From assembly GCA_009387755.1 (NCBI GenBank), contig GG697236.1:1-50717 (forward strand): a DNA stretch of 50,717 nucleotides, in the 5' to 3' direction. Shown here in pieces: positions 42,663 to 49,560 of this stretch. Source of the DNA: Candidatus Micrarchaeum acidiphilum ARMAN-2. Its GTDB lineage: Archaea; Micrarchaeota; Micrarchaeia; Micrarchaeales; Micrarchaeaceae. The translations under genes and the position numbers were made by a program. Numbering within the stretch: position 1 is the first letter of the stretch; each line of letters opens with the position of its first letter. The notes under the pieces are model-generated. The model worked only from the letters and a program-made list of their open reading frames with translations, was not told the origin of the DNA and searched no databases.

Positions 42663-43082
42663 TCATCTGAGCATAAGTTCGGCTCTCAAATCTCTGTTCA
42701 GCGCGCCCATCGTGGATCCGTCCGCATTGGGCCTGTAAAACTTTTCATAGAGCTTGCCTATCCTTTCGGAATCATGAAGCGATCTTTCTACATATTCCTT
42801 TATCTTCTTCGGCGTGCCTAAATAGCCGTGGTACAGTATCAGAAGCTTGACTGCCTTCTTCGCAGTATCATCCCCCGCAACGCTCCTCCAGAAGCCTATG
42901 TCCTTCTTGTAAAGATCATATGCAAGGTCGGAATACTTGGAGCTCTGGAGCCCAATAACCTTTTTAAAAACTGAGTCGGTTTCGCTCCTTACCTCATTGA
43001 GCGCAGCCTTGTAAAAGTCAGAGCTCATCTTTGCATTGTCCAAATAGCCCCTCATTTTGTCGTGCAGGCTTTTTTCGGCCAT
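42663..43082 (-). CDS. Unrecognised small protein with the shared promoter
   Basis: 139 residues, soluble, helical and basic: MAEKSLHDKMRGYLDNAKM, then KYSDLAYDLYKKDIGFWRSVAG and KLLILYHGYLGTPKKIKEYVERSL. No family recognised. Ribosome site GGTG is 5 nt upstream of ATG 43082. Its promoter is almost identical to that of the 44122 gene over 23 bases, which is the main clue to its role: a common regulon. Confidence 0.6.
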   Translation of the reverse strand: MAEKSLHDKMRGYLDNAKMSSDFYKAALNEVRSETDSVFKKVIGLQSSKYSDLAYDLYKKDIGFWRSVAGDDTAKKAVKLLILYHGYLGTPKKIKEYVERSLHDSERIGKLYEKFYRPNADGSTMGALNRDLRAELMLR

Positions 43083-43100
43083 GATAACACCAATTGTTGA

Positions 43101-43128
43101 TGTTTATGCGCATTTCCAGATATTTATA
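43101..43128 (-). promoter_or_regulatory. Promoter with TATAAATATCTGG and the palindrome ATGCGCAT
   Basis: The - strand reads TATAAATATCTGGA (from 43128) and then AATGCGCAT; 23 bases from the TATA are identical to 44084-44106. The palindrome ATGCGCAT occupies 43106-43113, between the TATA box and the expected transcription start. Distance from TATA to ATG 43082 is 46 nt. Confidence 0.65.
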
Positions 43129-43179
43129 CGTTCCTTGTCATGCAAACAAAATATTTTATAAGGGCAATGCAATAATACA

Positions 43180-44058
43180 ATGATGGATTCAAGAAGAGTG
43201 TACAAGCTAATCCTGGCAAGCGTGTTCCTTTACGCGGTCAACGGTACAATAGACTACGTTGTGATAAAGCACCTTCAGCTGGGCACAGCCGTACTCTCGA
43301 TAGGCATAGGCCTTGCAGTGGGCTTCGCAGTGGTCGCAAGCGCCTCAAGGCTGCGCTTTTCTTTGGCCAGGAAGCGCTACTATGCTTTCAGCGGGGCTTC
43401 GGCTCTGCTCATAGCGGCGTATACTGCACTGCTGTTTCTGGCATACGAGAAATACACGCTTGCCAGCATATACCCACTTATAGGGCTATCCGCACTCGTG
43501 TTCTTCGCCATAGACGCCATCAGGTACAGGAGGAGGGTCCAGCCGAGGAAATCGGCCATGCTGTTTATAGGGGTTCTTTTTGTGGCTGCGGGAGTTTTCT
43601 ACGCGGAGAGCAACGGCTTTTCTTTCCAGGCAGGCACGCTGCCTTTCATAGTGGGAATATCAGTCGTAGCGGGAGTGGCGTACTACATGCAGTTCTACAG
43701 GATAGAAAAGTACAGCGTAGGCTCCAAGCTGGCCCTGCAGCCTGTGTTCCTGGTAATAATCGCGCTCGCCTTACAGCCCGCGATTGCAGGCCAGAGCCTG
43801 GCATACGTTGCGCTGGGGGTTTTGGGAGGCTCAACATTCACCATGGCAAACTTCCTCGAACTAAGGGCAATGAAGGCCAGCATGACAAGATCGATAAGCA
43901 GGACCGTTGTAAGGAGGAACCTGCTGAACGACCTCGGCTACCTTGACACCCTGCTCGTGCTTGCCGGCAGCATCATAATAGGAAGCTTCCTTCCGATAGA
44001 GCTCCTTGGCGGCGTGCTGATATTCTCCGGCATCCTTATAATAAGCAGGATAAGATAG
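43180..44058 (+). CDS. EamA/DMT-like ten-helix transporter
   Basis: 292 residues with about ten hydrophobic helices in two halves: KLILASVFLYAVNGTIDYVVI and AVLSIGIGLAVGFAVV in the first, LPFIVGISVVAGVAYYMQF, LGVLGGSTFTMANFLEL and LPIELLGGVLIFSGILIISRI in the second. The pattern fits the drug/metabolite transporter superfamily. Substrate unknown. TATAAG about 27 nt before the ATG suggests a leaderless transcript. It is divergent from the 42663 gene. Confidence 0.75.
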   Translation: MMDSRRVYKLILASVFLYAVNGTIDYVVIKHLQLGTAVLSIGIGLAVGFAVVASASRLRFSLARKRYYAFSGASALLIAAYTALLFLAYEKYTLASIYPLIGLSALVFFAIDAIRYRRRVQPRKSAMLFIGVLFVAAGVFYAESNGFSFQAGTLPFIVGISVVAGVAYYMQFYRIEKYSVGSKLALQPVFLVIIALALQPAIAGQSLAYVALGVLGGSTFTMANFLELRAMKASMTRSISRTVVRRNLLNDLGYLDTLLVLAGSIIIGSFLPIELLGGVLIFSGILIISRIR

Positions 44059-44083
44059 GCGCGCAGCCAACGCCAAAGTCGAA

Positions 44084-44110
44084 TATAAATATCTGGAAAT
44101 GCGCATTAAT
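44084..44110 (+). promoter_or_regulatory. Promoter with TATAAATATCTGG and the palindrome AATGCGCATT
   Basis: TATAAATATCTGG starts at 44084 and the palindrome AATGCGCATT is at 44098-44107. TATA to ATG 44122 is 38 nt, so the palindrome covers the interval just before the transcription start, a usual place for a repressor to bind. Confidence 0.65.
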
Positions 44111-44121
44111 AAAGGATTAGC

Positions 44122-44547
44122 ATGACTAATGCAAACATTGCAAAGAACGTAAATAAGCTGGAAAATCCCGTTCTTGAAGACTCATTGCGAAAGTACTTTA
44201 TGGCATGCAATTTCAATGACTATGGATTCACTGCAAACGCGACAATGATAGTGGAGGAAGCCATAAGGCAAGTAATATCGCAGGCCAACAAACCTTACAT
44301 AAAGCCGGCAGAAAAGAAAGCCATTGCGGACCTGTTTCATATGTATAGCTCCAACTTCCTTCCGACATGCATTAAAGAGATGCATAAGGAGATCGCAGAA
44401 TCAAAGGTATACACATACTTCCTGTGGCAGCAGTACAACTTGATGCAGGAAAGGGAAGACTTTGCGATAGAGGAAATTCCTGCAGTTTACAAAAGAATGC
44501 TGAGAGAGCAGAAAACCGACTCTATGCCAAAAATAGCACAAAGGTGA
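44122..44547 (+). CDS. Unrecognised helical protein, first of a two-gene operon
   Basis: 141 residues, soluble and helical, no family recognised. Notable: ANIAKNVNKLENPVLEDSLRKYF, a MACNFNDYGF segment, HMYSSNFLPTCIKEMHKEIAE and YFLWQQYNLMQ. Promoter as described at 44084-44110. The following gene begins 4 bp after its stop, with its ribosome site inside this gene. Confidence 0.6.
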   Translation: MTNANIAKNVNKLENPVLEDSLRKYFMACNFNDYGFTANATMIVEEAIRQVISQANKPYIKPAEKKAIADLFHMYSSNFLPTCIKEMHKEIAESKVYTYFLWQQYNLMQEREDFAIEEIPAVYKRMLREQKTDSMPKIAQR

Positions 44548-44551
44548 CAAG

Positions 44552-45022
44552 ATGGCAACCAAAACCGAAAGCGAGATAAAAAGGCTGCAGAGGGAAATGA
44601 TAACCTCAGGCAAAAATGACCTGGAAATATTGCCAGATGGAAAGATAACAGATATCGTCGTATCCGTTTTGCGAGACAAGATCGATCCTGATCCGTTCGG
44701 AACCAAATCTGTTGCATTGGCAGATGCGACCAGAGCAACGCAAGGTCTGATAAATGACATCAGAGAGAACTACGAGAACTGGTCCCCCAAATTAAAAGAC
44801 GCAATAAGGACGGGAGACCACAGGCCGCTGCTGAGCGAAGAAGCCCAGGTTTTAACCAATGCGCTCGATCCTAAAAGCACCGAGAGACTCGGAGAAACAG
44901 GCATAAAAACAATGGCTGCAGGCGTAAACTCATTCATGGCGATTCCAAGGGCAACGACAGAGCTCAGGATGGAATCCTACCAGAGCAAAATAGACGAGCT
45001 GCGCCGCAAAGGCTACCTGTAA
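44552..45022 (+). CDS. Unrecognised helical protein, second of the operon
   Basis: 156 residues, charged, no family recognised. Sequence runs TKTESEIKRLQREMITSGK, DLEILPDGKITDIVVSVLRDKI and ends RMESYQSKIDELRRKGYL. A very strong ribosome site AGGTGA is 5 nt upstream of the ATG, at the end of the previous gene. Likely a partner of the 44122 product. Confidence 0.6.
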   Translation: MATKTESEIKRLQREMITSGKNDLEILPDGKITDIVVSVLRDKIDPDPFGTKSVALADATRATQGLINDIRENYENWSPKLKDAIRTGDHRPLLSEEAQVLTNALDPKSTERLGETGIKTMAAGVNSFMAIPRATTELRMESYQSKIDELRRKGYL

Positions 45023-45046: not shown

Positions 45047-45187
45047 TTATTTGCCGCCAATCTTGAACATTTTAGTCCCGCAGACAGGGCACACTCCTGT
45101 GGTTGCCTTCTTTCCGTTCTTCATGGTAACCTCGTGCGCGTCCTTCATCTCCCTCTTCGCTTTGCATTTAACGCAGTATGCTTCCAT
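45047..45187 (-). CDS. DUF5679-type small zinc-ribbon protein
   Basis: 46 residues: MEAYCVKCKAKREMKDAHEV, then MKNGKKATTGVCPVCGTKMFKIGGK. CVKC and CPVC form a four-cysteine zinc ribbon. The sequence is typical of the DUF5679 family found in many archaea and bacteria, function unknown. ATG 45187 follows GTGAT by three bases. Convergent with the 44552 gene; 25 bp separate the stops. Confidence 0.88.
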   Translation of the reverse strand: MEAYCVKCKAKREMKDAHEVTMKNGKKATTGVCPVCGTKMFKIGGK

Positions 45188-45266: not shown

Positions 45267-45728
45267 CTATTGCCTGCGCATCCTCACATACCCATCTAAG
45301 GCGCGCGCCATTACCTCATCAGAGTCCACTTCATAGACTCCAAAGACCTTTATCGGGACTTCCTCCCGCCTCATTTCCTTCCTGAACTCCTTTACCGATT
45401 CCTTACCTATCCTTATCGACTCGTATATTCCGTCAACTCCAAGGTCCCCGGAAGGAATATCATACGCGTAGAGCGCTGCGATATACTTCAGCCTGCCGCG
45501 AAGCGGTGAAGCCACAACCCTGAGAATCTCAGTCTCGCTATTTTTATAGGGTACCACAATGCTGTATGAAGGGAAACCATCATAATTTGTTATGTCTATC
45601 TTTTCCATTGAGCTTCTAGGTATGCCCGACTTTCTGCTCACAACATCTGCAAATCTGTCCGACAGCTCTGATGCTGTTTTAGCCGCCTGCTTAATTTCCT
45701 GCATCGTCTGCATCTTCTTATGGAACAT
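45267..45728 (-). CDS. Unrecognised small mixed alpha/beta protein
   Basis: 153 residues. A helical N-terminus (MQEIKQAAKTASELSDRFADVV) is followed by beta-rich sequence (YDGFPSYSIVVPYKNSETEILRVVASPLRGRLKYIAALYAYD) and a charged helix (IRIGKESVKEFRKEMRREE), ending VFGVYEVDSDEVMARALDGYVRMRRQ. No family recognised. Start could be ATG 45728 or Met 6 or 9. Promoter TATAAATATCTGGA at 45756-45769 is shared with the 42663 and 44122 genes but lacks the palindrome. Confidence 0.6.
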   Translation of the reverse strand: MFHKKMQTMQEIKQAAKTASELSDRFADVVSRKSGIPRSSMEKIDITNYDGFPSYSIVVPYKNSETEILRVVASPLRGRLKYIAALYAYDIPSGDLGVDGIYESIRIGKESVKEFRKEMRREEVPIKVFGVYEVDSDEVMARALDGYVRMRRQ

Positions 45729-45750
45729 TTAAATCACATTATAGCATTCC

Positions 45751-45769
45751 ATAAATCCAGATATTTATA
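45751..45769 (-). promoter_or_regulatory. TATAAATATCTGGA promoter of the 45267 gene
   Basis: The - strand begins TATAAATATCTGGA at 45769, identical for 14 bases to the promoters at 43128 and 44084; the sequence then diverges. Distance to ATG 45728 is 41 nt. Confidence 0.5.
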
Positions 45770-46232: not shown

Positions 46233-47501
46233 TCATCTAAGGAGCCACTTCCACAGAGGAACAAAAGAGATGTCATGACCATATATGCGCTTATCTGCTT
46301 CGTAGTCAAGCGTAATTACAAGCAGCTTGTCGCATTGGAGCTCATCGCTTGCCTCTATAATATTTGTTGTTTCTCTTTCCTTTATTTCTTGTTCTGATGA
46401 TGCATTTGTAACCTGGATAAGCATATCTACCTTTTCGCCAGACTTTATGATGAAATCGACCTCGCGGTGTTTGTAGTCTTTCCAATAATATAAGTTAAAG
46501 TTGCGTCCGGCAGCGCTCCTGCGCTTCAGTTCTATCGCCACGCACGTTTCCATAAGCCTTGAGAGGTTCTTGTCACTGCTGAAGCCGAGGAGGTTGACAA
46601 ACCCAGTATCTACGGCAAAGCCTTTTTTCGGCGCGATCGCCACATTTTTAAGCTTGTAAGAAAACCTTTCCACAGTAAATATGAGGTATGCATCTTCCAT
46701 GTACTTTACCCAGTTGGAGAGGGTTATATGGTTCTTTACGGGTGTGGTGCCACTAAGCGACGAATATGTAAATTCCTGCGAGGAGTTGCTTATCAAGAAC
46801 CTCGCAATCTGCCTTAGCGCTTCGGCGTGCTTTATCCTGTGCCTCTGTATGATATCCCTGTTTATTATGTCGTTGTAAATGCTCTCCAGCGATGCCCTCC
46901 CATACTTGAAAAATTCAGGGAAGCCACCATTGCGAAGGTATTCCAGCAGCATCTTGTTTATATTCGCGCGCTCCTGTGTCGTTAGCGCGCCGCCAACCCG
47001 AACGCTTTTGTATTCGAGGAATTCCGAAAAACTGAACGGGTATAGCGTAAAATCTATATGCCTGCCCGTAAGCCTTGTTGCGAGCTCGCCGCTGAGCAGC
47101 TTTGAGTTTGAGCCTGTGACTATGACGCGCTTGGTTTCCCTTAGCCTGCCCACGAAAGGCTCCCAGCCTTCGACATTCTGAACCTCGTCGAGTATCATCC
47201 TGTCGAGATCGCTGCCGTAGAGCTCATAGAATGCCTGAAGCACGGAATTCAAGTCGCCAGCGCTCATGCCCAGCAGCCTTTCATCATCGAAGTTTATGTA
47301 GCCGTGCTTTTGGCCATTGAAAAGCTGTACTGCAAGCGTTGACTTGCCGCAACGGCGCACGCCAAGTATGAATAGTGCAACGTTAGATGCGAGGTAATCT
47401 TCAAGCTTGGCATCCCTTGCTATTATGTGTTCACTGCCAAGCTTCTGCTTTATCATATCTGCCTGCTCCCTGATTATTGCCTTTAGCTGCTCCTTGTCCA
47501 T
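46233..47501 (-). CDS. AAA ATPase with DUF4143 domain
   Basis: 422 residues. Walker A is GVRRCGKST (47-55), Walker B RMILDEVQ (101-108), and sensor region TGSNSKLLSGELATRLTGRH with PFSFSEFLEY. The C-terminal half (about 200-330) has the DUF4143 pattern, including SNSSQEFTYSSLSGTTPVKNHITLSNWVKYMEDAYLI and a nuclease-like ending DFIIKSGEKVDMLIQVT. The family is abundant in archaea, often in variable regions; function unknown, and mobile-element or defence roles have been proposed. A 15-bp AT direct repeat lies upstream. Confidence 0.88.
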   Translation of the reverse strand: MDKEQLKAIIREQADMIKQKLGSEHIIARDAKLEDYLASNVALFILGVRRCGKSTLAVQLFNGQKHGYINFDDERLLGMSAGDLNSVLQAFYELYGSDLDRMILDEVQNVEGWEPFVGRLRETKRVIVTGSNSKLLSGELATRLTGRHIDFTLYPFSFSEFLEYKSVRVGGALTTQERANINKMLLEYLRNGGFPEFFKYGRASLESIYNDIINRDIIQRHRIKHAEALRQIARFLISNSSQEFTYSSLSGTTPVKNHITLSNWVKYMEDAYLIFTVERFSYKLKNVAIAPKKGFAVDTGFVNLLGFSSDKNLSRLMETCVAIELKRRSAAGRNFNLYYWKDYKHREVDFIIKSGEKVDMLIQVTNASSEQEIKERETTNIIEASDELQCDKLLVITLDYEADKRIYGHDISFVPLWKWLLR

Positions 47502-47748: not shown

Positions 47749-48519
47749 TTAGGCAACTGCCTTTGCCTTGGAGAAGGAATAGGCTCCCAGCGCCAGCATC
47801 ACGAGCGCTATTGCTCCGAGTATCACCGCATCCATCCATACCGGGAACACCGAAACTCCCAGCAGAGCGCCTCTCATGCCGTCAACTCCGTACGTCAAAG
47901 GGTTGACATACGTAACATACCGTATGAAGCCGGGCAGGGCGCTCACAGGATATATGGCCCCAGACAAGAAAAATATGGGAAATATAAGCAGGTTTAGTAT
48001 TAGGCCGAAGCCCTGCATGTCTGTCATTACCGAAGCCAGTATCAGCCCTATTGATATGAATACAAGGCCTATAAGGAGCATGAACCCGAAGGCAACGAAC
48101 AGCCCGGCTATGCTCACAATGTGGAAGCCTATGAAAAGCGAGAACACTATAAGAAGCAGGCTTTGCAGGAAAGCGGTGGTTATGCCTCCGAAAGTCCTGC
48201 CCAGCATTATGCTAAGCCTGCTCACCGGAGCCACCATGACCTCCTTGAGGAATCCGAACTGCCTGTCCCAAAGCAGGGATATGCCTGCCGTGGTAGCAGC
48301 AAAAAGCATTGACATGCCAAGTATCCCAGGAACCAGGAAGTCTATGTAGCTAAAGCCAGGAGGAAGCCCCGGGAACTTTACAGCGCTGAAGCCTGCGCCA
48401 AGGAATATAAGGAACAGGAACGGCATTGCCACTGACCCTATTATCTGCGAAGGGGAGCGCTTGAAGCGCTTCATAGCCCTGAGCCAAAGGACGTATACTG
48501 CTGCAAGGTTCCTGTTCAT
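47749..48519 (-). CDS. ABC-2 type exporter permease
   Basis: 256 residues with six membrane helices. WLRAMKRFKRSPSQIIGSVAMPFLFLIFLG is the amphipathic start, the LLWDRQFGFLKEVMVAPVSR motif follows helix 2, and VNPLTYGVDGMRGALLG is the conserved end motif. Forms an exporter with the ATPase encoded immediately upstream (4-bp spacing). Substrate probably a drug, lipid or polysaccharide; not predictable. Confidence 0.92.
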   Translation of the reverse strand: MNRNLAAVYVLWLRAMKRFKRSPSQIIGSVAMPFLFLIFLGAGFSAVKFPGLPPGFSYIDFLVPGILGMSMLFAATTAGISLLWDRQFGFLKEVMVAPVSRLSIMLGRTFGGITTAFLQSLLLIVFSLFIGFHIVSIAGLFVAFGFMLLIGLVFISIGLILASVMTDMQGFGLILNLLIFPIFFLSGAIYPVSALPGFIRYVTYVNPLTYGVDGMRGALLGVSVFPVWMDAVILGAIALVMLALGAYSFSKAKAVA

Positions 48520-48523
48520 TGCA

Positions 48524-49522
48524 TTACCTCATCCTGCTGCGCATTATTCCGCGAATGCGCTCGTTGGATTCAGCTTCGGAATCGCGTATGCTTTTTCCTG
48601 TATAATATATGAAAACATCCTCAAGGCTTGGCTTGTGCACCTCAACGCTGGTTATCTTTATGCCTGCCTTGTAGGCAATGGACATTATCCTGGGAAGCGC
48701 CGACTCTGCCTCCCTGACGTATACATAAAGGTTGAGGCCGTCTTTCCTCGTCGATTTCACGAACTTCTCCTCCTTCATAGCCATGATGAGCCTGTTGCTG
48801 CTGTCTTCGTTCTCCAGCCTGACTATCGCAGCATCGCCCTGCAGCTTCCGCTTAAGGTTCTGCGGCGTGTCGCAAGCCACTATTTTCCCGTGGTCCATTA
48901 TCGCTATCCTGTCGCATATGTAGTCCGCTTCCTCTATGTAGTGCGTTGTTATGAATATGCTGAGCCTGTACTTCCTGTTGAGGGCCTTTATGTAGTCGAG
49001 TATGTGCCTCCTTGTCTGCGCGTCCAGCCCTACGGTGGGCTCGTCCAGGAACAGCACTTCGGGCTCGTTCAGAAGGCCGCGCGCAATCTCAAGCCTGCGG
49101 CGCATGCCTCCGGAATACTTGACAACAAGCTTATCCGCGCTGTCCGTAAGCTCTACCATCTCCAGCATCTCCTTTATGCGCTTCCTCCGCTCCTCCTTGC
49201 CTATGCCGTATATGATTGCATGGAAGTCAAGGTTCTCGTAGCCGGTGAGCCTGTCGTCAAGGGAAGGATCCTGGAAGACTATGCCTATCGCGCTCCTGAC
49301 CTTTTCCTTTTCATTCGAGATGTCAAAGCCAGCTACCTTCGCCTGGCCGCTTGTCTTGTCTATTATTGTAGTGAGCATGTGGACTGTGGTCGTCTTGCCC
49401 GCGCCGTTAGGGCCGAGAAAGCCGAATATCTCGCCCTTCTTTACTCTGAAGGATATGCCTTTAACCGCGGTGAAGGATCCATACTTCTTAACCAGCTTTG
49501 ACACGTATATAGAATCCGCCAA
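48524..49522 (-). CDS. ABC-2 type exporter ATPase
   Basis: 332 residues. Walker A GPNGAGKTT, Q-loop FQDPSLD, signature YSGGMRRR, Walker B VLFLDEPT and the H-loop TTHYIEEAD are all intact. The C-terminal 100 residues, including VHKPSLEDVFIYYTG, are of the DrrA/CcmA-type. Forms a transporter with the permease that follows. The promoter has TATAAAATGCGCAT (49547-49560), placing the palindrome ATGCGCAT directly next to the TATA box, as at two other genes. Confidence 0.95.
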   Translation of the reverse strand: MADSIYVSKLVKKYGSFTAVKGISFRVKKGEIFGFLGPNGAGKTTTVHMLTTIIDKTSGQAKVAGFDISNEKEKVRSAIGIVFQDPSLDDRLTGYENLDFHAIIYGIGKEERRKRIKEMLEMVELTDSADKLVVKYSGGMRRRLEIARGLLNEPEVLFLDEPTVGLDAQTRRHILDYIKALNRKYRLSIFITTHYIEEADYICDRIAIMDHGKIVACDTPQNLKRKLQGDAAIVRLENEDSSNRLIMAMKEEKFVKSTRKDGLNLYVYVREAESALPRIMSIAYKAGIKITSVEVHKPSLEDVFIYYTGKSIRDSEAESNERIRGIMRSRMR

Positions 49523-49546
49523 AATACCACAACCGTATTATTATGA

Positions 49547-49560
49547 TGCGCATTTTATAT
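49547..49560 (-). promoter_or_regulatory. TATA box with the palindrome ATGCGCAT, ABC exporter operon
   Basis: On the - strand TATAAAATGCGCAT, 38 nt upstream of ATG 49522. The palindrome ATGCGCAT (49547-49554) is shared with the promoters at 43101 and 44084. Confidence 0.55.

Follow-up and report, generated by a model that had tools for sequence, protein, structure and literature searches.

Probable extended core promoters upstream of small orphan genes

The sequence common to the promoters of three orphan genes in the genome of Candidatus Micrarchaeum acidiphilum ARMAN-2 (1.01 Mb, 8 contigs) is, judging from the DNA itself, likely to be an extended archaeal core promoter that carries a family-specific element downstream of the TATA box, and not an operator. 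The stretch analyzed here (the window, 50,717 nt) is one contig of this genome, and contains the following features:

42663..43082, minus strand: 139-aa orphan protein
43106..43128, minus strand: putative extended core promoter of the 42663 gene (TATAAATAT 43128-43120, CTGG 43119-43116, AAATGCGCAT 43115-43106)
43180..44058, plus strand: 292-aa hydrophobic protein, between two outward-facing identical promoters
44084..44106, plus strand: putative extended core promoter of the 44122 gene (TATAAATAT 44084-44092, CTGG 44093-44096, AAATGCGCAT 44097-44106)
44122..44547, plus strand: 141-aa orphan protein
44552-45022: 156-aa orphan, beginning 4 nt after the 44122 gene and probably forming one transcript with it
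45267..45728, minus strand: 153-aa orphan protein
45757..45769, minus strand: TATAAATATCTGG promoter of the 45267 gene, with 14 nt in common with the other two and lacking ATGCGCAT
48524-49522, minus strand: drrA-like ABC gene (ATPase), with TTG as its apparent start codon

As originally predicted, the promoters of the 42663 and 44122 genes are identical over 23 bases from the TATA box (TATAAATATCTGGAAATGCGCAT; 43106-43128 on the minus strand and 44084-44106 on the plus strand), and the 45267 promoter has 14 nt in common with both (TATAAATATCTGGA, 45756-45769). The distances from TATA box to start codon, 46, 38 and 41 nt for the 42663, 44122 and 45267 genes, respectively, also held. If one mismatch is allowed, the match between the first two promoters extends to 26 nt. 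Only two copies of the 23-mer are present in the 1.01-Mb genome, with none other at up to three mismatches, and such an identity is far beyond chance for unrelated DNA. Paralogy of the two genes was considered as a source of the common promoter and discarded, as the proteins have no detectable similarity.

Over the ten positions that follow CTGG, the window pair matches at all ten, the best result among 1,225 promoter pairs. Under a consensus with independent columns, such a match would have a probability of only about 3e-4 for any of the ten pairs within one genome; between genomes, three pairs reach 9/10. Probably, shared selection or the copying of a short local segment adds to the consensus in producing the 23-nt identity. 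That local copying of 23-26 nt between promoters (gene conversion or template switching, with the TATA/CTGG core as seed), or identity kept for co-expression, could be the whole explanation is doubtful. The rank of this pair and the occurrence of just two copies, inverted and 1 kb apart, speak for it, but copying is impossible for the cross-genome pairs that reach 9/10, the identity begins exactly at the TATA box, the 42663 and 44122 proteins are not paralogous, and only the pair, not the family-wide element described below, would be accounted for. As a separate observation, another local promoter-like repeat of this genome, consisting of two TATAAATAT sites 1.5 kb apart with 38 identical bases, was found at G000:C7:60451-60488 and 61942-61979.

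Since the perfect inverted 23-mers bracket a single ORF, they might also be viewed as terminal repeats, with the 43180 gene as the cargo of a small mobile unit, a reading to which we give almost no weight. The flanks have no target-site duplication of at least 2 nt, there is no transposase, the 23-mer has no further copies in the genome, relatives of the 43180 gene lack such repeats, and both repeats work as promoter-like sequences. The 43180 product, a probable membrane protein, has no family in Pfam or NCBIfam; its relatives occur in five other genera of the family, and the nearest named one is in a Candidatus Mancarchaeum genome, which places the source of the window among the Micrarchaeota-type DPANN archaea.

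An eight-letter palindrome is not an operator

The original prediction proposed that the palindrome ATGCGCAT is the operator of a regulator controlling the three orphan genes and an ABC exporter. The word is indeed present by the TATA box at the 42663, 44122 and ABC genes, although the ABC site lies at 49546-49553, one base away from the position first given, and all three sites in the window are upstream of genes. The statistical argument, that an 8-mer is expected less than once in a window of this size, failed: dinucleotide shuffles of the window give 1.97 +/- 1.45 occurrences, and at least three occurrences were found in 33 of 100 shuffles. Moreover, the copies at 43106 and 44099 are not independent because they are parts of one repeated 23-mer.

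Genome-wide, ATGCGCAT occurs 42 times as compared with about 39 expected. According to gene calls from a purpose-made simple hexamer gene finder, 35 of these sites are genic, six precede a start by no more than 150 nt, and one is elsewhere in intergenic DNA. With non-coding DNA making up about 12-15% of the sequence, the seven non-genic sites among 42 do not depart from a share of about 12% (P=0.24), nor do the four among 39 outside the window (P=0.71). A promoter enrichment seen in a 410-kb sample (7 intergenic and 12 genic sites) disappeared in the full count, because that sample happened to contain every one of the genome's seven non-genic sites. The spacing is also inconsistent, with ATGCGCAT beginning 15 nt from the TATA start at the 42663 and 44122 genes and 6 nt from it at the ABC gene, and none of the other TATAAATATCTGG promoters listed contains the word. 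A genome-wide scan in which the palindrome is as frequent within genes as elsewhere and shows no promoter enrichment was the result named in the original prediction as decisive against it; since this is what was found, we reject the operator, which now appears very improbable.

Although ATGCGCAT resembles the operators of archaeal regulators in being a short palindrome close to the TATA boxes of two promoters, it differs from these in lacking promoter enrichment, fixed spacing and other sites, and no cognate regulator was found in its neighborhood. ATGCGCAT is rather a chance eight-letter word, spelled at two promoters by the letters around the consensus, and the palindrome is largely a by-product of that consensus because AAATGCGCAT has the preferred letter at most positions of the logo described below. 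We judge the copy near the ABC gene to be coincidental and outside the element. For that gene, taking the TTG at 49522 as the start codon gives a TATA-to-start distance of 37 nt.

Other genes lie in this part of the window. The ABC gene belongs to a two-gene drrA-type exporter (47749-49522, minus strand; TIGR01188 above cut-off). An AAA_14/DUF4143 ATPase (46233-47501, minus strand) adjoins the small orphan genes, and a 46-aa zinc-ribbon-like protein with four cysteines is encoded at 45050-45187 on the minus strand; PF18930 (DUF5679) was one of the families matched in the control set to which this protein belongs.

A positioned element specific to one family

What remains after rejection of the operator is a positioned, family-specific promoter element. 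Genome-wide counts were obtained from whole-genome pattern searches and sampled stretches (410 kb for promoters). The genome contains five TATAAATATCTGG sites, three of them within the window, and each is located in non-coding DNA 36-47 nt before the start of an orphan protein of 130-153 aa. No Pfam or NCBIfam assignment was obtained for any of the five proteins, those of the 42663, 44122 and 45267 genes included. The scan thus bears out the predicted promoter signature in front of unrecognized small proteins (5/5 sites); the ABC exporter has no demonstrated link to these genes.

Among 301 genomes of the phylum, the 85 genomes of the window's family contain 61 TATAAATATCTGG sites compared with 2 for a reversed-pattern control, although this control underestimates the background since the reversed pattern puts GGTC on the BRE. 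The corresponding counts are 7 and 4 in the sister family and 3 and 3 elsewhere. GG is the commonest dinucleotide after TATAAATATCT, found in 20 of 150 cases among the matches listed, as compared with 1 in 16 (P=0.001), although the enrichment of GG over other dinucleotides among those matches is only about twofold. In the 410-kb promoter sample, CTGG occurs 5-6 times at +9 relative to the TATA start, compared with 0-2 times at each of the other offsets. Even when the two seed sites are left out, 3 of 58 TATAAATAT sites are followed by CTGG (P about 0.001). CTGG at +9 was absent from the sample of a single-contig relative (G010). A generic preference for CT at +9/+10 after the TATA box was dropped, as an antisense control gave the same result and it is therefore inseparable from a mirrored BRE. 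In some relatives (G215, G221-G228), the same TATA box is also repeatedly followed by TATAAATATCTCCTAA and TATAAATATCTGAA.

Layout of the promoter

A total of 67 TATAAATATCTGG sites was read out for layout. At 49 of these, an ORF of at least 55 aa starts within 50 nt, and at about 50 within 55 nt, in most cases between +36 and +41. In the logo of the 49 sites, an A-rich BRE at -5 to -3, G at -2/-1, TATAAATAT and CTGG are followed by A at +13 to +15 (73, 63 and 69%), by high GC content at +17 to +19, by A at +21 and T at +22, and then by AT-rich sequence, with a G-rich block near +30 to +32 that fits the ribosome-binding GTGA. The window 23-mer is close to this family logo. The same layout was found at 37 promoters of these genomes in which TATAAATATCT is not followed by GG; therefore, CTGG is one variant of the extended core promoter. 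The promoters gave no DNA structure and no known RNA family. For one pair, at 45721-45769 of the window and in a relative of a different genus (L003 and L147, the latter in G226), much of the stretch after CTGG also matches (ATTTATGGAATGCTATAATGTGATTTAAATG and TTTTATGGAACGTTATCGTGGTTGAATG), although the genes behind these promoters appear unrelated; the extended promoter may therefore comprise sub-classes.

These features resemble those of the TBP/TFB-dependent BRE-TATA core promoters of archaea: an A/G-rich BRE, a TATA box of 8-9 bp (TATAAATAT in all), a non-coding location and a start codon 30-50 nt downstream, a distance that would fit a short leader and a transcription start site some 26-30 nt beyond the TATA box. 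The difference is the recurring CTGG-AAA-GC block directly after the TATA box in one family. In archaea, HTH1 of TFB contacts the DNA just downstream of the TATA box (BREdown), a region described as A/T-rich in Saccharolobus solfataricus (PMC8131849). The conserved bases found here begin right after the TATA box, with CTGG at +9 and then AAA and the GC patch in place of A/T-rich sequence, and their position would correspond to the BREdown of archaea and eukaryotes; TFB HTH1 would be the most natural reader of CTGG. From this layout, we propose that TBP would bind the TATA box, that TFB would touch the BRE on the upstream side and CTGG on the downstream side, and that DNA melting would begin in the AT-rich stretch beyond the GC-rich patch. 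Directional initiation would follow about 30 nt downstream to give a short leader, the start codon usually being 36-41 nt from the TATA start, and CTGG would be a variant of this layout particular to the lineage and found chiefly at genes whose function is unknown.

Genes behind the element

Pfam matches (E<1e-4) were found for about 6 of the 48 proteins behind CTGG promoters (a number inferred from the nine families listed), about 11 of the 37 behind non-GG TATAAATATCT promoters, and 13 of 30 behind generic TATA promoters from two genomes. An orphan bias is thus supported for this promoter type (CTGG versus generic, P=0.003) but is not firmly GG-specific, because CTGG and non-GG promoters differ only at P=0.06. 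Micrarchaeota are orphan-rich in general, with 29% of Ca. Micrarchaeum harzensis proteins lacking an arCOG (PMC8975820). A viral origin of the CTGG-promoter proteins was not borne out, only six PHROG families with one member each being found among the 48. In 40 related genomes, the only relative of the 42663 protein was found in one genome (G005; 41% identity), where the promoter has neither ATGCGCAT nor CTGG, and no confident relative of the 44122 and 45267 proteins was found beyond one weak match.

The orphan bias, the fixed position of CTGG and the near-identity of the neighboring pair beyond the consensus would all be expected of a true regulon, in which a lineage-specific factor (a TFB paralogue or other regulator) recognizes TATAAATATCTGG(AAA) and controls orphan genes including 42663, 44122 and 45267. 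We regard this as possible but unlikely, because the non-GG promoters share the layout and are orphan-rich too, the products of CTGG promoters have no common function or homology save one clear pair, the single ortholog of the 42663 gene has lost or never had the element, and no regulator was identified. On the whole, the central part of the earlier observation holds and its statistics do not, and an extended core promoter seems the better description of the common sequence.

Implications

The promoters of DPANN archaea are hardly studied, and in the literature searched we found no paper joining Micrarchaeota, promoter and TATA box. Removing the false operator and the false link to the ABC exporter leaves CTGG as a testable case of sequence preference at the BREdown contact of TFB in archaea. 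A more speculative thought, to which we give a small chance, is that CTGG is read in this family by an initiation factor of its own, either a variant TFB or an additional regulator, which switches lineage-specific orphan genes, perhaps for life with a host cell. For this family, an element after the TATA box that is biased to genes without known function provides a searchable handle on the promoters of orphan genes and on their true start codons.
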